Shown here: one piece after another, positions 1 through 6,010 of the stretch
Position numbering within the stretch: the stretch's first letter is position 1
Layout: each line of letters starts with the position of its first letter
The notes under the pieces: generated by a model
Database searches by the model: none
Seen by the model: only the letters and a program-made list of their open reading frames with translations
Told to the model about the DNA's origin: nothing
Assembly: GCA_019894875.1 (NCBI GenBank)
Contig: JAGXNR010000154.1
Location: 1-6,010, forward strand
DNA length: 6,010 nucleotides
Direction of reading: 5' to 3'
Source: Promethearchaeota archaeon
Lineage (GTDB): Archaea; Asgardarchaeota; Lokiarchaeia; Sigynarchaeales; SOKP01
Translations under genes and position numbers: made by a program

Positions 1-401
1 GATGTATATCGGGAGAAAGTGTATTTAGGGAAGCTGAAATTATAACTGATCTTTGTGGAGGTATTCCAGCTACTTTTCCACTTGAAAAAGATTTTATCAA
101 TCCTGATACTAAGGATTATCTAAATAAATACATAATGAGAAATCCTAATATTTCACCTGAAAATGCAGCTCAATTCTGGCGGTACATTGGTGATGTTTCC
201 GTTTCTGCGACGTCAGGAGTCTCCCTCTTTGGAAATTATCATGGAGGTGGTTCCCCTGTAATGGAAAGTATCGCAATAACGAGTCAATATGATATCGAAT
301 CCAGGAAAGAAATAGTCAAAAGAATTGCTGGAATTAACGATGAATTAAATGAAGAAATGAAAAAAGAGAAAAATGTAATTTTAGAAACAAAACTAGCATA
401 A
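1..401 (+). CDS. HpaB / 4-hydroxybutyryl-CoA dehydratase family flavoprotein, C-terminal part
   Basis: This frame is open from the window edge (first full codon at 3) to a TAA at 399-401, so it is the last ~132 codons of a longer gene. Visible marks are DLCGGIPATFPLEKDF at about residues 17-32, then a helix with WRYIGDVSVSATSGVSLFGNYHGGGSP, then a basic end containing KEIVKRIAGINDEL. The GGI-x-TxPxEKD segment and the HGxGSP segment are, from memory, typical of the C-terminal helical domain of 4-hydroxybutyryl-CoA dehydratase and related acyl-CoA dehydrogenase-fold flavoproteins. The aromatic hydroxylase branch (4-hydroxyphenylacetate 3-monooxygenase) usually lacks HGxGSP, so the dehydratase-like branch is favoured by inference. 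The Fe-S and most flavin ligands would lie upstream of the window, so substrate cannot be judged. It converges on the minus-strand array and stands outside it. Confidence 0.75.
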   Translation, partial: CISGESVFREAEIITDLCGGIPATFPLEKDFINPDTKDYLNKYIMRNPNISPENAAQFWRYIGDVSVSATSGVSLFGNYHGGGSPVMESIAITSQYDIESRKEIVKRIAGINDELNEEMKKEKNVILETKLA

Positions 402-418: not shown

Positions 419-532
419 TAAATAATAATTCTCTAAACAGTCGTCGAAAACCATAGAATTTGAAAACGTTTCTTAAAAGCCTTTGGTACTTTAATTTAGA
501 TTTAACAATTTTTTATCTTTTCAAAGAAATTT

Positions 533-755
533 TTATTGAAATCAGACGCTGAATTTACTTTTCAAATAAAAAAGAAAAAGTTAAATCTAAGCTCTAGAAC
601 ATACTCCCCCATTTCTTGCCTTCCAATTCCTTCAGTCTCAATCCAATCTTATCATCTTTTACCAGCCAAAATACGACCACCACCCTCAAGTTCTAAGCCT
701 GAATCCTGTAATCCCCTTTCGGCTGCCACACACTCGTGCTATTGAGAGTAGCAGG
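533..755 (-). repeat. rRNA-tail repeat, copy 1 (full length)
   Basis: Read on the minus strand this holds, in order: the 23S 3'-end sequence (713-755, with the stem gcta...tagc), the ~110-nt trailer, the conserved core (586-607, with TAAGCTC and AGAACATACTCC), a T-rich tract (565-585) and a ~30-nt tail ending in the near-palindrome TTATTGAAA. It matches copy 5 beside the 23S gene but is more diverged, for example CTCAAGTTC for CTCACGCTC. It lies 170 bp downstream of the aminopeptidase stop in the sense direction, so it could serve as that gene's 3' UTR and terminator. The plus-strand ORF at 536-745 is only the shadow of this repeat. Confidence 0.9.
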
Positions 756-793
756 ATATCACTAATCTCAAAAATTTTGGAAACATTATTATA

Positions 794-925
794 TTATAGA
801 ATAAAAAATAGAACTGATATTAGCATCATCACTATAATGCATAAACTCATTGACATTATCCAATTTGGAAACTCTCTTTCAGATTCCCCAAAAACTAGAG
901 TTGGTAATATTTTAATTAAAAGATT
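794..925 (-). other. Open stretch with a hydrophobic end, in frame after the aminopeptidase stop; possible gene remnant
   Basis: Between the aminopeptidase and repeat copy 1 the same frame stays open for about 43 codons after the TAA, ending at a TAA at 794-796. The translation ends SMSLCIIVMMLISVLFFIL, which looks like a transmembrane tail. No good early ATG is present; the first ATG would give only about 20 residues. Hydrophobic translations arise easily in T-rich DNA, so chance is possible. The small membrane proteins elsewhere in the array make a decayed neighbour of the same kind plausible. This stretch (756-925) shows nothing else I can name. Confidence 0.2.
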
Positions 926-2035
926 TTAAATTTTCCACTGTCCTTCTTCATAAATGACTTTTCCATCAGCAATAACTTTTGATCCTGATGGCTTCATATC
1001 TTTCAAAATATCCCAATGTATCGCACATTTATTCTTAGAACCAGTCTCTTCTAAACCTGCTCCTAGTGCGCAATGTAATGTTCCTCCAATCTTTTCATCA
1101 AATAACATGTTTTTCGTAAATTGAGTTATGCCATAATTAGTACCTATCGCAAATTCTCCCAATTTATCCGCATTTTCAATCGTTAAAATTTCCTGGAGCA
1201 GATTTTCACCTTTACTTGCTCTTGCATTAATTATTTTTCCATCTTTAAATTCTAAATAAACATTCTCTATTTCAATCCCTTGGTAGATTCCAGGATATGT
1301 AAACCGAATATGTCCATTTACAGAATCTTCGATTGGTCCAGTAAATACTTCGCCATCAGGTAAATTTAACCTACCACAACAGTTTACCCAAATTCTTCCT
1401 TTTACAGAAAGAGTTAAATCGGTATCTTCGCCTATAACGTGGATTTTATCAGCACTATTTAGAAATTTACAAATGCCTTCTTGTTGTCTTTCTATATCTA
1501 ACCATTCTTTAACTGGATCTTCTTTATCTAAAAATAGTGCCTTTTGTACTAATTGAAAATAAGAAAATAAATCCATATTAGCCTCTTGAGCAAATGAATT
1601 GCATGGAAATGGTAAGGCAAGATAATTTAATTCCTTTTTGCCAATTCTGTCCATTAAAATCTCCCATACTTCCCGTTGAGCAGGTGATCCTCTCGATTTA
1701 GATATTAATTTGGGATCAATTAAACTCAATTTACGGGTATTGTAATCTGCTGCGATCTCAACATAAGAATCAAAATCTTTAAGTGTTTGTTTAACAATCG
1801 GATCTACATATACCAATTGCTTTTCAGATGCGTATTTGAAGAATAATTCTTGGGTTCCTTCTATCATCGGATGGAGCATTGGATGCCCCTCGGCCTTAAG
1901 AACTTCAGCATATAGAGCTTGAAAAAGCTCTTTTGCAAGAGTAGGTCCTGCAATATAGACTCTATCTCCTTCCTTAACTTTAAGAGAATAGTTTACCGCT
2001 AACTTTGCTAATTTTTCATAGAAAGCATTAATCAT
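926..2035 (-). CDS. M29-family metallo-aminopeptidase (AmpS / aminopeptidase II type)
   Basis: The 369-residue product has the layout of peptidase family M29, cytosolic dinuclear-metal exopeptidases that remove N-terminal residues from peptides. The N-terminal part carries VKEGDRVYIAGP (residues 20-31). The C-terminal catalytic half has NLPDGEVFTGP with E229, GEF with E294, GGTLHCALG with H321, and IHWD with H340 and D342. Order and spacing agree with the ligands known for the Thermus enzyme (two Glu, two His, one Asp), so the enzyme is probably active. Typical bacterial members run about 400-410 residues; this one is slightly shorter, mostly between H321 and H340. The ATG at 2033-2035 is chosen because a TATA box lies 27 bp upstream, which implies a leaderless mRNA. 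It is the largest gene of the array, followed by repeat copy 1 and preceded by the 23S-end fragment (copy 2b). Its link to the rRNA repeats appears positional, not functional. Confidence 0.9.
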   Translation of the reverse strand: MINAFYEKLAKLAVNYSLKVKEGDRVYIAGPTLAKELFQALYAEVLKAEGHPMLHPMIEGTQELFFKYASEKQLVYVDPIVKQTLKDFDSYVEIAADYNTRKLSLIDPKLISKSRGSPAQREVWEILMDRIGKKELNYLALPFPCNSFAQEANMDLFSYFQLVQKALFLDKEDPVKEWLDIERQQEGICKFLNSADKIHVIGEDTDLTLSVKGRIWVNCCGRLNLPDGEVFTGPIEDSVNGHIRFTYPGIYQGIEIENVYLEFKDGKIINARASKGENLLQEILTIENADKLGEFAIGTNYGITQFTKNMLFDEKIGGTLHCALGAGLEETGSKNKCAIHWDILKDMKPSGSKVIADGKVIYEEGQWKI

Positions 2036-2057
2036 AGTCTAATTAAATGGTTAATTT

Positions 2058-2066
2058 GATATAAAC
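2058..2066 (-). promoter_or_regulatory. TATA box of the aminopeptidase gene
   Basis: The minus strand reads GTTTATATC, centred 27 bp before the A of the start codon. This is the distance expected for an archaeal TATA box when transcription starts at the ATG. It lies just 20 bp downstream of repeat fragment 2b. Confidence 0.55.
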
Positions 2067-2085
2067 TAGTTACAATAATAAATTT

Positions 2086-2146
2086 GAACCCTGTGATCCC
2101 CTTTCGACGGCCACACACTCGTGCTATTGAGAGTAGCAGGCTAAAT
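2086..2146 (-). repeat. rRNA-tail repeat, copy 2b (23S-end half only)
   Basis: This 61-bp stretch matches the 23S 3' end in copy 5, including CGACGGCCACACACTCGTGC and the gcta...tagc stem, followed by AGGCTAAAT. The trailer, core and T-tract are absent; the match stops at GAACCCTG. It begins exactly at the stop codon (2147-2149) of the small basic protein, in the sense direction. With copy 2a it makes up nearly one whole repeat, but in swapped order. Confidence 0.9.
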
Positions 2147-2347
2147 TCAATCACTCCTTCTATGTTTGAATAAATATTTTGATAATTCATCAAAGAACTC
2201 TAAATCTATATCACGTATTTTCCATTTATTTCTTTTTGATCTCATTAATGCTTTTCCATACACTCTCCATAATTTTAATGCGTATTTTCTTGGTAAATAT
2301 TTGTATCCATCATTCATTTTCATTGAATTCAACCGTACTAATGACAA
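2147..2347 (-). CDS. Small basic protein of unknown function
   Basis: I do not recognise this product. From a TTG at 2345-2347 it is 66 residues; from the ATG at 2321-2323 it is 58. The TTG start has a weak T-rich TATA-like stretch about 26 bp upstream (2369-2377), which the ATG lacks, so both remain possible. The protein is rich in Lys, Arg and aromatics (PRKYALKLWRVYGKALMRSK), with a helical end DLEFFDELSKYLFKHRR, suggesting a nucleic-acid or protein contact role, but no family motif is visible. It lies between repeat copies 2a and 2b, with the stop directly against 2b. An opposite-strand ORF (2166-2372) covers the same DNA but has a less protein-like composition. It may be a real cassette gene or a chance ORF. 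Confidence 0.4.
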   Translation of the reverse strand: MSLVRLNSMKMNDGYKYLPRKYALKLWRVYGKALMRSKRNKWKIRDIDLEFFDELSKYLFKHRRSD

Positions 2348-2370
2348 TAAAGAAGTAGTGGTTTTGACTT

Positions 2371-2517
2371 AAAAATGTTTATCCTCTCATTGAAATTAGA
2401 CTCTGAATTTACCTTTCCATTAAAAAATAAAAATAAAATCTAAGCTCAAGAACATACTCCCCCCTTCTTTCCTATTACTTCATTCTCAATCCAATCTTCT
2501 TGTACCAACCAAAACAT
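2371..2517 (-). repeat. rRNA-tail repeat, copy 2a (trailer and terminator half only)
   Basis: This copy holds the tail with TCATTGAAAT, the T-tract (2421-2437 on the plus strand as an A-rich run), the conserved core (2439-2460) and the first part of the trailer up to TGTACCAACCAAAA. The 23S-end part is missing. Its upstream edge lies about 13 bp from the stop codon of the 76-aa membrane protein, so it can act as that gene's terminator. Similarity to copy 3 extends a little past the tail (TTAAAAATGTT). Confidence 0.88.
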
Positions 2518-2530
2518 GATTTCACAATAG

Positions 2531-2761
2531 TTATTTATTTCTCAACCTTCCGCTTATGAAGAAGCCAATTAAAAGGATCGAGCCACTTAAATATAAATAG
2601 TTAGCTACATTTCCCAACACGGATAATAGAGTAGTCCAATTTGGATATATCGACAATTTGGCATCATAGGAGACAAAGACAAATATGATTAAGTAAGTCG
2701 CAGCAACATACATCAGTACAGCCAAGATTAAAGGGTAATTTTGTTTAATTTTTATATTCAT
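2531..2761 (-). CDS. Small two-helix membrane protein, unknown function
   Basis: The 76-residue product has two hydrophobic segments, at about residues 10-31 and 47-70, joined by a short polar loop (SYDAKLSIYPNW) and ending in GRLRNK. The basic ends on both sides suggest that both termini are cytoplasmic, with the loop outside. I do not recognise the family. The ATG at 2759-2761 is supported by a TATA box about 26 bp upstream. It lies between repeat copies 3 and 2a, and its stop is about 13 bp from the edge of copy 2a, so it fits the one-ORF-per-interval pattern. Confidence 0.6.
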   Translation of the reverse strand: MNIKIKQNYPLILAVLMYVAATYLIIFVFVSYDAKLSIYPNWTTLLSVLGNVANYLYLSGSILLIGFFISGRLRNK

Positions 2762-2780
2762 TTTCTTAAAGATTCCTATT

Positions 2781-2794
2781 TTTTATTTAAAATT
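2781..2794 (-). promoter_or_regulatory. TATA box of the 76-aa membrane protein gene
   Basis: The minus strand reads AATTTTAAATAAAA, with TTTAAATA centred about 26 bp before the start codon. That implies a leaderless or nearly leaderless mRNA. The DNA is generally AT-rich, so the box is suggestive, not proven. Confidence 0.45.
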
Positions 2795-2834
2795 ATCAGA
2801 CATTTTGTTAAAAATGTTATTCTTTCACAGGAAG

Positions 2835-3039
2835 TTTCATTGAAATCAGACGTTGAATTTACCTTTCTAATAAAAAAATAAAAAAGTAAAATCTAAGCTC
2901 AAGAACATACTCCCCCATCTTTCCTATTACTTACCATCCCAATCTTATCCATTTCTGTACCAATCAAAATACGACCACCACCCTCACGCTCTAAGCCTGA
3001 ACCCTGTAATCCTCTTTCGACTGCCACACTGTGCTATGA
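2835..3039 (-). repeat. rRNA-tail repeat, copy 3 (nearly full)
   Basis: Over 2921-3029 this copy differs from copy 5 (4788-4896) at only 2 of 109 positions, so the two are recent duplicates or are kept alike by gene conversion. It has the tail (TTTCATTGAAATCAGACG), T-tract (about 2870-2890) and core (2892-2913). Its 23S-end part is shortened: after GCCACAC it goes straight to TGTGCTATGATCCC, losing part of the terminal stem. The 230-aa gene reads into this copy and stops inside it, at 2991-2993. Confidence 0.93.
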
Positions 3040-3683
3040 TCCCTTTTAAGTATCCTTTTGTAATAAACGCCACTTATCAAAATTAATACGAATATTATAT
3101 TTACAACCAAATATCCAGGGATTCCAGGATTTGATTCGGGGTAAAAAAATTCGTTAAAATTAATTTCTTCACTAGTTATTGAACCAGACTTTTCAGTTAT
3201 AAATATCTCAGTACAAGAACCTGTACATGTTGGATATCGATATATATACTCTAAATGGAATTGAAATATTGAATCATTATAGGGTGAAATTATCAAATTC
3301 GTTGATGGGACAATCGCAGAACTATTTATTAAATTACCATTTTCAAAAACATCTACTCTTGTTTGGACACTGAAATTTCCATACTGCGTACCGGAGTCGT
3401 AAAGATATCTAACAGCTATATCCAGAAAATCATAAAATATTGTAATATCAAAAGTCGCTCTAACCAAACAAGAGTATTGTGAACATATCGCCTGACTACA
3501 TTCAAAAGTATAAAAGAAGTCTTGTAGTGAGACGGAACTAGTGAAGTTTGTTTGACTACTTACCCTTAAATTATCTGATTTATTAATTATGTTTTTATGA
3601 TAAGAAACTTGTTCAATTAGATTAACAGCTAGAATTGAACTAAATATTATTGAAATAAGAAGAAAAATGTTTAATCTTTTCAT
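2991..3683 (-). CDS. Secreted/membrane-anchored protein with PGY-type C-terminal membrane tail, unknown function
   Basis: The 230-residue product starts with a signal peptide or anchor (KR then hydrophobic residues 5-20). An extracellular part of about 170 residues follows, with five Cys (62, 67, 72, 153, 157) and five N-glycosylation sequons (N34, N46, N103, N120, N136). It ends NPGIPGY, a membrane helix (about 190-208) and YYKRILKR. This end resembles the PGF/PGY-CTERM tails recognised by archaeosortases, so processing or lipid anchoring is possible (inference). Such proteins normally end a few residues after the basic cluster; here HSTVWQSKEDYRVQA follows, encoded entirely by repeat copy 3, so the native stop seems lost. 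The ATG at 3681-3683 has TATAAATA 26 bp upstream. I do not recognise the ectodomain. Confidence 0.7.
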   Translation of the reverse strand: MKRLNIFLLISIIFSSILAVNLIEQVSYHKNIINKSDNLRVSSQTNFTSSVSLQDFFYTFECSQAICSQYSCLVRATFDITIFYDFLDIAVRYLYDSGTQYGNFSVQTRVDVFENGNLINSSAIVPSTNLIISPYNDSIFQFHLEYIYRYPTCTGSCTEIFITEKSGSITSEEINFNEFFYPESNPGIPGYLVVNIIFVLILISGVYYKRILKRDHSTVWQSKEDYRVQA

Positions 3684-3704
3684 AATAACTCTTAGATTTT
3701 TGAA

Positions 3705-3714
3705 TTATTTATAC
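3705..3714 (-). promoter_or_regulatory. TATA box of the 230-aa gene
   Basis: The minus strand reads GTATAAATAA, centred about 26 bp before the ATG. This is a close match to the archaeal TATA consensus at the leaderless distance. Confidence 0.6.
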
Positions 3715-3751
3715 AACATTTTTTTTAAAGTTTATTGAATGAAAAAATTAT

Positions 3752-3773
3752 ACTCGTCTCATCCCCATGGTTC
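3752..3773 (-). repeat. 22-bp fragment of 23S rRNA sequence
   Basis: ACTCGTCTCATCCCCATGG plus TTC matches 23S positions 4988-5009 of this window at 20 of 22 bases, in the same orientation. In the rRNA this segment contains GAGATGAG, about 60 nt upstream of the repeat's boundary. Here it sits just upstream of the promoter of the 230-aa gene. It may be the remnant of a longer rRNA copy. Confidence 0.6.
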
Positions 3774-3801
3774 AAAATAATATTCCACCTAATATCATGT
3801 C

Positions 3802-3821
3802 CTTGAAATAATTAATTCAAG
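3802..3821. promoter_or_regulatory. AT-rich palindrome between divergent genes
   Basis: CTTGAAATAATTAATTCAAG agrees with its own reverse complement at 18 of 20 positions. It lies between the 230-aa gene (minus) and the 76-aa RPA-like gene (plus), about 30-50 bp upstream of the latter's TATA box. It could be an operator or a chance feature of AT-rich DNA. The rest of 3774-3900 shows nothing else besides the plus-strand TATA box. Confidence 0.25.
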
Positions 3822-3852
3822 ATAATAATATAAGAAATAGACTTATAATTGA

Positions 3853-3860
3853 GTATATAG
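3853..3860 (+). promoter_or_regulatory. Possible TATA box of the RPA-like small gene
   Basis: GTATATAG lies about 45 bp before the ATG at 3901, which would leave a leader of roughly 18-20 nt. No clear ribosome binding site is visible before the start. Confidence 0.35.
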
Positions 3861-3900
3861 AAGAGTGATATTCTCATCTAAAGAATTTAAATGATAAAAT

Positions 3901-4131
3901 ATGGGAAAAATGCAAAAGGATTTATTTGGAAATGTGGTTCCTGAACTCAAAGAGGAAAAAAAAGCACACTTCAAAAAGATTAAAAAGATAATTGAAGATT
4001 CGACTGGGATTTCCAAAGAAGAATTACACCATTTATTAGAAGAGAAAAAATATGAGTTAAGAAATCCAATTTCAGACGAAGGAGCATTGTTACAAATAAG
4101 CGATTTATTAGAAAGGATTTCTATTTCTTAG
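3901..4131 (+). CDS. Small protein with a helical segment like archaeal RPA; possibly truncated
   Basis: The 76-residue product has a short N-terminus with DLFGNVVPE (residues 7-15), a Lys-rich stretch, then a helical segment with TGISKEELHHLLEEKKYEL (35-53) and ISDEGALLQISDLLE. From memory, archaeal replication protein A subunits carry a similar segment (TGxSxEEhxxxhEEKxxELxGhISxEGAxxhhAxxLG) before their first ssDNA-binding OB fold. No OB fold follows: the frame stops at TAG 4129-4131. Another frame is open from before this stop to 4310, running into repeat copy 4, but its sequence does not resemble an OB fold. The gene may be a free-standing regulator with this helical domain or a truncated RPA fragment. 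It is the only gene running against the array and so may not belong to it. The ATG at 3901 is the only good start. Confidence 0.55.
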   Translation: MGKMQKDLFGNVVPELKEEKKAHFKKIKKIIEDSTGISKEELHHLLEEKKYELRNPISDEGALLQISDLLERISIS

Positions 4132-4140
4132 AGAGGAGTG

Positions 4141-4198
4141 ATGTCTCGGCTTACCCCAAAGAATCTGTCGAGATTGTAAACTACATCATATTCCTGGA
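4141..4198. other. Gap region with a weak inverted repeat
   Basis: Between the RPA-like gene and repeat copy 4 (4132-4276) there is no convincing gene. GATGTCTCG at 4140-4148 can pair with the separated CGAGA and ACATC further on, giving a bulged stem. No tRNA or known RNA pattern was recognised. A frame without a start codon is open across this gap up to 4310. Confidence 0.15.
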
Positions 4199-4276
4199 TT
4201 TCAAATTCGTTGAAAAAATTATAGTAGATACCTTTTATGAGAAGATCTATTTTGTAGCTCAGAATAATGATACAAA

Positions 4277-4370
4277 CCTTTCCATTAAAAAAAGAAAAAA
4301 GAAAATCTAAGCTCTAGAACATACTCCTTCCTATTATTTCAATCTCAGCCTTTATCATTTTTGCTATGAT
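4277..4370 (-). repeat. rRNA-tail repeat, copy 4 (internally deleted)
   Basis: This copy has the T-tract (A-run at 4286-4305), the core (4306-4327, with the CTCTAG variant shared with copy 1) and a shortened trailer. After TTTATCATTTT it jumps to TGCTATGAT, the same junction bases as in copy 3, so about 100 nt of trailer and 23S end are missing. The stop codon of the 83-aa gene (TAG, 4364-4366) is made from this repeat sequence. In the sense direction it can end that gene's transcript. Confidence 0.8.
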
Positions 4371-4615
4371 AAATAAATTACCACAGTTACTATAACAAGC
4401 ATGATAAACAAAGGACATATTAACAACCATCTAAATCTGTCATGCCCAATCAAAACTTCTTTTTTTTCAGAACTTAATCGCTCACCACATCTCGGACAGT
4501 ATACAGGAATGGAATCACGCCACATTATCGGACTGTAAGGACTATGAGTCCGATAAATTCGCTCTCCACAGCTCTCACATTTAGGTCTTAATGATATTTT
4601 CCTTCCCAACCTCAT
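4364..4615 (-). CDS. Small zinc-ribbon protein with C-terminal membrane helix
   Basis: The 83-residue product has CESCG (C13, C16) and CPRCG (C40, C43), two knuckles that would hold one zinc ion in a zinc-ribbon fold, followed by a basic linker and a membrane helix at about residues 62-82 (LLICPLFIMLVIVTVVIYL). It is therefore probably tail-anchored with the ribbon in the cytoplasm. Small proteins of this layout are common in archaea and mostly uncharacterised; no partner can be named. The ATG at 4613-4615 has TATAAAT about 30 bp upstream. The last helix residues run straight into repeat copy 4, which supplies the stop codon. It is the first ORF downstream of the 23S gene and its trailer, with a promoter of its own. 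Confidence 0.65.
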   Translation of the reverse strand: MRLGRKISLRPKCESCGERIYRTHSPYSPIMWRDSIPVYCPRCGERLSSEKKEVLIGHDRFRWLLICPLFIMLVIVTVVIYLS

Positions 4616-4640
4616 CTTATTTTAAGTCTATGTCTCTCAA

Positions 4641-4650
4641 CATTTATATG
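4641..4650 (-). promoter_or_regulatory. TATA box of the zinc-ribbon gene
   Basis: The minus strand reads CATATAAATG, centred about 30 bp before the ATG. It lies downstream of the 23S terminator tract, so the gene need not rely on read-through from the rRNA promoter. Confidence 0.5.
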
Positions 4651-4721
4651 GATTATTCATAATTAAAGATAAAATAGGATATAAAAATATTCGTCAATTT
4701 AGAGTAGAGTTTCACTATTTA

Positions 4722-4926
4722 ATACCTATCCAATAAAAAAGAAAAAAGAAAATCTAAGCTCAAGAACATACTCCCCCATTTCTTGCCTTCCTATTACTTA
4801 CCATCCCAATCTTATCCATTTCTGTACCAATCAAAATACGACCACCACCCTCACGCTCTAAGCCTGAATCCTGTAATCCTCTTTCGACGGCCACACACTC
4901 GTGCTATTGAGAGTAGCGGGCTAAAT
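4722..4926 (-). repeat. rRNA-tail repeat, copy 5 (at the 23S gene itself)
   Basis: This is the presumed parent copy. It holds the last ~40 nt of 23S rRNA (from about 4926 down to 4885) with the stem gcta...tagc, the trailer, the core (4753-4774) and the T-tract. It is the only copy continuous with the body of the 23S gene. The tail beyond the T-tract matches copies 1-3 only partly (TTTCACT...TACCTATCC). The strongly conserved core with GGAGTATGTTCTTGAGC on the minus strand could be a processing or termination signal of the rRNA precursor. Confidence 0.93.
4732..4752 (-). terminator. T-rich terminator of the 23S transcript
   Basis: On the minus strand this is TTTT-C-TTTTTT-C-TTTTTT, about 150 nt beyond the probable mature 23S end. 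Long T tracts of this kind are the usual archaeal termination signal. Equivalent tracts occur in copies 1, 2a, 3 and 4. Confidence 0.65.
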
Positions 4927-4999
4927 AGGTCGCCCGAAAGCTCCCTACGTACACCCCTACCTCACCAACCCCGTCTTTTACGGGTGCACTCGTCTCATC

Positions 5000-5232
5000 T
5001 CCGTGGTTCGCGTCACCGCGCCCCACTCTCGTCAGTACCTTATACCAATCATTTATACTATGACTCACGCAGCCTACGAACACTTTCACGACCGCTTTCA
5101 CGACCGCTTCCATGCCCGCTCTGCGATACAGTTGATCCCAACTTTCACAGGAAAGTCTTCTCAACTAATCAGTATAAACACCCAATATAAAGCCCAACTA
5201 TTATGAAATAAGATTGGCTGATTATTTTCGGG
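5000..5232 (-). other. Expanded H98 / ES39 region of 23S rRNA
   Basis: Between GUCGGACCCG (ending near 5230) and GGAGAUGAGACGAGU (near 5000) the rRNA has about 230 nt where bacteria have a short helix 98. It contains a clean hairpin (5130-5166: AGTTGA pairs with TCAACT, ACTTTC with GAAAGT) and a 12-bp tandem repeat. Very large ES39 segments are known in Asgard archaea, which supports the lineage call. Confidence 0.65.
5083..5118 (-). repeat. 12-bp tandem repeat inside the 23S expansion
   Basis: CTTTCACGACCG occurs twice in tandem (5083-5094 and 5095-5106), followed by the degenerate third unit CTTCCATGCCCG (5107-5118). It lies in the ES39 insert and suggests growth of the segment by slippage or unequal exchange. 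Confidence 0.7.
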
Positions 5233-5461
5233 TCCGACTTCGTGCTTAGATGCTTTCAGCACTTATCCGTTAGCGCGTGGCTGCCCGGCGATACCTTGTC
5301 AGATAACCGGTACACTAGAGGCGCCGGCAAAATGTTCCTCTCGTACTGATTTTCCCTTACCCTCAATCAACCTACAAGCCCAGCAGATAGAATCCGACCT
5401 GACTCACGTCGGTCTAAACCCAGCTCACGTTCCCTTTTAATGGGCGTACAGCCCCACCCTT

Positions 5462-5509
5462 GGGAGTTATGCGCACCGCTCCGAAACCGAAACGATTATG
5501 TGCGCTCCC
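5462..5509 (-). other. Lengthened helix 91 of 23S rRNA
   Basis: The stem GGGAG / CTCCC (5462-5466 with 5505-5509), which in E. coli closes a short hairpin (helix 91), is here extended by a second stem CGCAC / GTGCG (5472-5476 with 5500-5504) and a ~23-nt apical part with two CCGAAA units. The flanking universal sequences are intact on both sides, so this is an insert in a real rRNA. Confidence 0.65.
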
Positions 5510-6010
5510 AGGATAGGAAGAGCCGACATCGAGGAAGCAAGCCACGAGGTCGATAGGAACTCTTACTCGTGACAACTCTGTTACCCCCGGGGTAATTTTT
5601 CTATCACCTCAACCAGCCACACGAGCACAGTTAAGGATCGCTAGACCAGGCGTTAGCCTCAGGATTCCTTGGTAATCAGAATCCAGTCAGGCCAGCTTTT
5701 GCTCTTAAACTCTTCAGCGGATTCCTGACCCGCCTGAGCTGACCTTTGGTTTCTCTAGATATCTTTTCTAGAGAGAGCCGCCCCAGCCAAACTGCCCACC
5801 TGCGGGTGTCCGACACTTTCGTGCCGTTAGTGATCCCAAGAAAGAAAGCCGGTATTCCAAAGTTGCTCCACCGTAACCGAAATTACGGCATCTACGCTCC
5901 CGACTACACTCTGTATCTAGCTCAAGACCACAGCAACAGGCTGCAGTAAAACTCCACGGGGTCTTCTCGTCCCACCAGGTATCTCCGGACCGTTCGCCGG
6001 AGTGTAATTT

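Follow-up and report, generated by a model that had tools for sequence, protein, structure and literature searches.

The present analysis deals with repeated copies of the 3′ end of a 23S rRNA gene in a stretch of 6,010 nt (contig JAGXNR010000154.1 of assembly GCA_019894875.1, Promethearchaeota archaeon), referred to here as the window. The 3′ part of the gene is located at 4887..6010 on the minus strand (Rfam RF02540, 728.7 bits). The resident 3′ end, the trailer, a short sequence that we named the box (GAGTATGTTCTNGAGC, at 4758-4773) and a T-tract span 4723..4926 on the same strand. Because Rfam sets the 3′ end of the gene at 4887, the repeat corresponds to about the last 40 nt of the 23S rRNA, about 150 nt of trailer and the T-tract. 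Comparison of this region (4935-4700, minus strand) with the window by blastn identified five copies on the same strand, at 3029-2860 (92%, E 2e-69), 758-556 (85%, E 8e-63), 2146-2085 (94%, E 3e-23), 2514-2410 (80%, E 1e-22) and 4327-4276 (92%, E 1e-16), while the top match of the 23S 3′ end on the opposite strand reached just E 2. A previous sequence-only reading of this DNA had described dispersed copies of the 23S 3′ end and trailer in a single orientation, and the comparison bears this out. The five copies that it listed are real, but it overlooked a sixth 23S-derived piece at 3752..3773 (minus strand), in which 20 of 22 bases are identical to positions 4988-5009 of the 23S rRNA gene, approximately 100 nt before its 3′ end. 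The runner-up among non-overlapping stretches scored 16, as did the maximum in one shuffled control. Pieces resembling this fragment seem to be present also in copies of another genome (G004, loci L114 and L115).

Reading away from the 23S rRNA gene, the resident T-tract is followed by the left arm (GGATAGGT) of a second repeat family of about 45 bp, site B (TGGAAAGGTAAATTCAGAGTCTGATTTCAATGAAAATTCCTTTGAAAA), and then by unrelated DNA. Features from this point on are on the minus strand unless indicated otherwise. An open reading frame (ORF) of 83 amino acids (4364..4615), whose zinc-ribbon matches were weak and every one below the Pfam cut-off, is followed directly after its stop codon by the first downstream copy (4276..4363), which consists of part of the trailer with the box (4311-4326), the T-tract and the left arm of B (GGAAAGGT), again followed by unrelated DNA. 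A 76-amino acid ORF on the plus strand (3901..4131) is antisense to the copies. The final codons of a 230-amino acid ORF (2991..3683) lie within the next copy (2817..3029), which includes the 23S end, trailer, box (2897-2912), T-tract and B (core 2842-2863). Another 76-amino acid ORF (2531..2761) ends about 16 nt before a copy (2387..2514) composed of trailer, box (2444-2459), T-tract and B (core 2392-2413). The stop codon of a 66-amino acid ORF with a putative TTG start (2147..2347) adjoins a copy formed by the 23S part alone, without box or B (2085..2146). An aminopeptidase M29 gene (926..2035; Pfam PF02073, 252 bits), whose product has its top matches among named genomes in Lokiarchaeia metagenome-assembled genomes (MAGs; 72%), has its stop codon 168 nt from the outermost copy (513..758), where the 23S end, trailer, box (591-606), T-tract and B (core 538-559) are all found. 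Thus, small minus-strand ORFs lie between the copies, and in most cases a copy follows a small ORF. The C-terminal part of an HpaB-type hydroxylase gene (3..401, plus strand; Pfam PF03241, 91 bits) lies outside the array.

The five downstream copies start at varying points within the 23S rRNA gene or its trailer, and four of them extend to the T-tract. All five window copies that reach the T-tract, the resident one included, continue into B or its left arm, for which the backgrounds were 0.5% and 1.5%. The extent assigned to the repeat by the sequence-only reading (23S end, trailer and T-tract) was correct in general, but 2085-2146 holds the 23S part only and 4276-4363 the trailer only. Three copies run on beyond the T-tract into B. 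The two differences in 109 positions reported for one pair hold for 2921-3029 against 4788-4896 (98%), and the notion that the copies differ in age was supported. A window-specific sequence after the box (CTTAGATTTT) is common to the window copies, and copies in the genome G011 carry their own (GAGATGGTAAGAAGGG). An Rfam search with the intergenic copies produced no match up to E 5.

The related genomes were searched, as the sequence-only reading had proposed, and the window 23S 3′ region matched 21 of 29 Lokiarchaeia-type genomes; this and the other DNA-match counts from genome-collection searches are lower bounds. Partial 23S-end pieces were found behind the 23S rRNA gene and elsewhere, on both strands. 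In G004, the copies on the chromosome (CP070831.1; loci L111 and L182) that lie away from the 23S rRNA gene include those at 728 kb, 933 kb and 1.715 Mb, on the plus strand, and one on the minus strand (1.60 Mb). This chromosome is scaffolded across 100-N gaps, so its positions must be taken with care; a split 23S rRNA gene considered for this genome was rejected, as the breaks are the gaps themselves. The box, with one mismatch at most, matched 64 times in 17 of the 29 genomes (resident boxes included) versus 4 for the reversed pattern, and a 17-letter form matched in 20 of the 83 genomes of the class, some of them perhaps by chance. With up to two mismatches it was absent from all 44 loci (L001-L044) fetched for another gene. 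An exact 23-letter pattern, too narrow and partly window-specific, had no match in the genome collection, and an exact 20-letter pattern had none in IMG/VR.

A profile built from eight resident 23S ends matched 91 times in the fetched loci. Removal of 11 resident ends and one match at a contig end left a dispersed set of 79 copies, two of which (L170 at 9345 and L171 at 6921), being close to contig ends, may be further resident ends. The T-tract end of the model was reached by 72 of the 79, and 16 were 5′-complete. As many loci were chosen by a match to the box or B, the shared 3′ end is inflated; the co-orientation is not. A sense stop codon lies within 50 nt of the start in 30 of the 79 copies (9.1% for random intergenic points) and within 20 nt in 20 of them (4.0%), whereas for an antisense ORF at up to 50 nt the number is 3 (10.1%). 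The automatic ORF picker misses two window cases, namely the 66-amino acid ORF adjoining a copy and the ORF reading into one. Among the 75 copies with any upstream ORF, this ORF is antisense in 30.

In archaeal pre-23S rRNA, leader and trailer strands pair around the 23S to form a processing stem with a bulge-helix-bulge, as stated in the excerpted text of PMC7038931. A leader motif that is a near-complement of the box (GCTCATARGAACATACTCCC) was identified in ten genomes and sits ahead of the 23S 5′ end wherever the leader locus extends to the 23S rRNA gene. A leader candidate obtained for G004 by a duplex scan was rejected because it fell on protein-coding DNA; the leader was located in other genomes and then by pattern. 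The textbook bulge-helix-bulge consists of two 3-nt bulges and a 4-bp helix. The fold of G002, with 12 bp between leader and trailer, a small loop, GCTC/GAGC and another small loop, resembles an archaeal 23S processing stem but does not match the textbook form exactly. Folds from G005, where the locus is cut inside the 23S rRNA gene, and G007, which has an insert in it, were left out. A 211-amino acid ORF that by eye resembles a LAGLIDADG homing endonuclease lies within the 23S rRNA gene of G007 (L129, 15652-16287). In the predicted processing stem, the box forms the 3′ strand. Ten of 13 genomes have a single perfect match to the leader motif and the remaining three lack one; allowing two mismatches added two matches, and the control matched likewise. 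The motif being single-copy, only the 3′ strand of the stem is dispersed. Copies behind one gene family in G002, G003 and G005 retain the box (exact, exact and with 2 changes, respectively) while their flanks diverge, a pattern that suggests that the box may be under selection.

A 22-mer of site B, with up to three mismatches, matched 163 times in 17 of 19 genomes versus 0 for the control; G018 and G024 were the genomes without a match. Exact B was not found in IMG/VR. Over 94 sites in fetched loci, most core columns were more than 85% conserved. B is an imperfect dyad with 13-bp arms, 10 of the 13 positions being matched. The sequences upstream of B belong to several families. The commonest (AGAGACACAAGGTTCGAGCCTTTTTAAATTTTGTCCCAATTT..., 23 of 94 sites) has a terminator-like end with a hairpin beside B, and 23S-trailer ends account for 15 of 94. 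A tRNA origin considered for the commonest family (GGTTCGAGCC) was dropped since it reads as a hairpin terminator. Individual downstream families (D2 to D5) were found behind differing upstream families. The outermost B of the window is among these cases (D2 family): the downstream flank of the copy at 513..758 (to 480) recurs in other genomes after differing upstream sequences, and it also matches G054, G052 and G016 (86-87%). In locus L190 of G054 (4861-6726), a 621-amino acid ORF with a start that looks GIY-YIG-like by eye lies immediately ahead of a B site, and in L191 a 135-amino acid piece of the same family precedes another.

Neighboring B sites less than 8 kb apart were co-oriented in 57 of 57 pairs, delimiting units of 0.37-6.2 kb, and neighboring boxes in 40 of 40. 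The shared direction of the copies, noted by the sequence-only reading, therefore does point to directional insertion. That reading had also held that it would be refuted by copies scattered genome-wide in both orientations without relation to rRNA. This applies in part: the copies are scattered and lie on both strands, but their orientation is constant inside each cluster.

Comparisons between genomes indicated that sequences delimited by these sites change neighbors. A 1292-bp unit in G009 and G050 and a 921-bp unit in G011 and G003 are 93-94% identical from B to B in each case, and the 500 bp outside either site did not match. None of the five listed B-to-B pairs had flank matches; the flanks were compared by blastn, which may overlook diverged homology. 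When the 921-bp unit was compared to 83 genomes, homology began at query positions 364-378 in G003, G004 (twice), G069, G028, G009 and G068 and stopped at 1312-1335 in G003, G004, G069 and G009; these limits coincide with the B sites. In G021, G015 and G058 only the interior of the unit matched. Its neighbors match alone elsewhere, the left one in G002 (1-371) and the right one in G063 (1296-1701). A second unit in the class-wide search matched over 399-1729 in G050 and 464-1613 in G063. Units bounded by 23S-derived copies (n = 51) behaved similarly: 15 pairs have 100 bp or more in common, and for 13 of these pairs neither of the outer 800-bp flanks matched. One of these units, f37-f38 in G002 and G003, is 84% identical with a match over almost the whole length, and another, in G007 and G050, is 93% identical up to the 23S-derived copy. 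The f3-f4 unit of G002 and G007 is 96% identical with different left neighbors; on the right, 0.8 kb that include a tRNA-Pro gene are present in G002 only, and beyond them the two are again colinear. At this place G002 (L124, 4034-4902) has a shortened 23S-derived copy ahead of the insert and G007 a longer copy and no insert. Genes between sites are sense or antisense, and 17 of 18 families with at least two bounded members hold one orientation with respect to the sites, f7 being the exception. The 18 families are 19 minus one of spurious ORFs inside copies, and some members represent the same place in related genomes.

A single backbone interval holds differing units, or none, depending on the genome. 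The position after the uS11 operon (named by eye) is occupied by differing units in G011, G020 and G012. The f52-f5 interval measures 10.5 kb in G007 and 4.1 kb in G001, with a backbone 87-90% identical. The f17-f47 interval holds differing units in G009 and G006, and G005 lacks 3.8 kb of G009 and has a single box copy. The region behind the 23S rRNA gene is one such platform. The idea of repeated events at one site, put forward by the sequence-only reading, did not hold: copies also occur away from the 23S rRNA gene, and they accompany units with genes at several hot spots of the chromosome.

We consider it likely that the window is an integron-like gene-cassette array located directly behind the 23S rRNA gene of a Lokiarchaeia-type Asgard archaeon, with cassette ends derived from the 23S 3′ end. 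In relatives, sequence comparison established that the putative end modules are repeated and co-oriented and that units lie beside differing neighbors, with homology ending at B or at a 23S-derived copy. A cassette would consist of one or two small genes and, after them, an end module. This module would begin with more or less of the 23S sequence and continue with the trailer, which includes the 3′ strand of the processing stem, and the T-tract; sometimes the dyad site B follows. Recombination at the 3′ end of this module, close to GGAAAGGT, would exchange cassettes, probably through circles, and every insertion would preserve the orientation and add one rRNA tail. The two junctions nearest the 23S rRNA gene break in the left arm of B, as predicted by recombination near this end. 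A tyrosine recombinase (PF00589) of 308-318 amino acids, which we call XerA-like from its length and spread alone, was identified in 8 of 9 genomes, including G018 and G024, which lack B; additional PF00589 proteins were present in G007, G011, G020 and G054. Serine recombinases were found in 2 of 12 genomes and Y1 (REP-like) transposases in 1 of 12, and both ideas were rejected. The XerA-like protein, the sole widespread candidate enzyme found, and homologous recombination between repeats are both candidates, ranked above retroposition. The broader proposal, that Lokiarchaeia carry an undescribed cassette recombination system apart from IntI/attC, with the 45-bp dyad B, one branch derived from 23S and several hot-spot platforms, seems to us evenly balanced.

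Several observations weigh against the cassette array. All compared genomes are MAGs. The class-wide search (83 genomes) found none of the window's own units whole elsewhere, which reduces our confidence in the statement as a whole, and we infer from their anatomy and from the relatives that these units are such cassettes. The M29 gene matches many places lacking the repeats, and the 83-amino acid gene has a 73% DNA relative on a contig with B sites (G068:C42) that is antisense to the sites. Of 81 copies extending as far as the T-tract, just 16 continue into B, and 3 into its left arm alone. Because the f3-f4 region is colinear, it represents an insertion and a change of neighbor at the copies and not a move. 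A dedicated recombinase was found neither among PF00589 proteins (9 genomes) nor in the serine and Y1 families (12 genomes).

This last result would be expected if no dedicated system existed, the 23S trailer having been copied beside genes by chance and the DNA then shuffled by homologous recombination or gene conversion among repeats. The copies are 80-98% identical over 60-200 nt, and their likeness within a genome (such as CTTAGATTTT and GAGATGGTAAGAAGGG) fits gene conversion. However, B is only about 45 bp long and recurs behind unrelated upstream families and at hot spots, and the breaks fall at its arms, so we regard this explanation as rather unlikely. We find it similarly doubtful that the copies are simply kept as a functional RNA 3′ end, with the box pairing in trans with the 23S leader or the box and T-tract acting as an mRNA processing or termination signal. 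The complementarity of the box to a single-copy leader, the excess of copy starts behind sense stop codons and the box retained at one gene family despite differing flanks would all be accounted for, but B, the co-orientation with genes in either direction, the exchange of units and the copies that follow antisense ORFs would not. Such a role and cassette mobility could coexist.

The remaining explanations fare worse. Retroposition resembling that of short interspersed nuclear elements (SINEs), in which reverse-transcribed, 5′-truncated 23S trailers are inserted at terminators, would produce the shared 3′ ends and scarce 5′-complete copies of the dispersed set, in part a selection effect. It is nonetheless very unlikely given that co-orientation within clusters is perfect, that copies travel with adjacent genes and that reverse transcriptase (PF00078) was found in just 4 of 12 genomes and in 3 of the 10 that carry B, an absence that is weak evidence in MAGs. 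The attC sites of integrons carry the boxes GTTRRRY and RYYYAAC. Within 60 nt of the B core, these motifs were found at 6 and 9 of the 94 sites, respectively, genes run in both orientations, and single-strand folding of the core seems weak (mean z of −1.3 for the top strand and −1.6 for the bottom versus mononucleotide shuffles). It is therefore highly improbable that the window is a canonical cluster of attC sites lacking an integron integrase (CALIN), in spite of its array form and of the archaeal integrons and CALINs, enriched in Asgard archaea, that the excerpted text of PMC9668308 describes. Misassembly of rRNA repeats has to be considered in metagenome-derived sequences, where rRNA assembles badly, as the interrupted 23S rRNA gene of G004 illustrates. 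We give it hardly any credence because the architecture recurs across many separately assembled genomes, with units common to several.

If the cassette reading is correct, the end of a cassette could be traced to a known gene, that of 23S rRNA; to our knowledge, the origin of integron cassette ends is an open question. Each captured gene would bring along a 3′ end of the rRNA type, and it would become possible to test for an effect of rRNA-processing signals on mRNAs. Lokiarchaeia would have a second kind of archaeal cassette, without attC motifs, that would reveal how single genes are exchanged in Asgard archaea, the cassettes that we found described being of the IntI/attC type (PMC9668308, excerpted text). 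The sequence-only reading was aware of no repeat family in archaea that derives from the end of 23S rRNA, and in the open-licence literature searched neither such 23S-derived repeats nor a site like B turned up as the subject of a paper. The portion of PMC8813620 consulted mentions repeats and a mobile element beside the 16S rRNA gene; the words integron and cassette are absent from that text.

The rRNA- or tRNA-derived SINEs of eukaryotes are likewise dispersed, 5′-truncated copies of the end of a stable RNA, but the copies described here are co-oriented and tied to gene units, and most searched genomes lacked reverse transcriptase. The archaeal pre-23S stem, in the excerpted text of PMC7038931, has the same leader and trailer pairing; here the 3′ strand is dispersed too and the 5′ strand is not. 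The dif (pdif) modules mobilized by Xer in Acinetobacter, as the excerpts of PMC11705084 and PMC7399989 present them, also have single genes between short dyad sites and no recombinase of their own. In this case, too, an XerA-like housekeeping protein alone is found in most genomes examined; the differences are that the sites here are all co-oriented and that B is only a candidate Xer site. Integron arrays, as described in the excerpted text of PMC9668308, share the tandem short-gene units, the co-oriented repeat sites, the units with changing neighbors and the many clusters without a nearby integrase. They differ in that their cassette genes run mostly one way, whereas here genes occur in either orientation, B and the 23S-derived copies lack attC motifs, there are several chromosomal hot spots and the end module comes from 23S. 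The Lokiarchaeia cassettes would work like an integron array and stand apart from it in two features, attC and gene direction.

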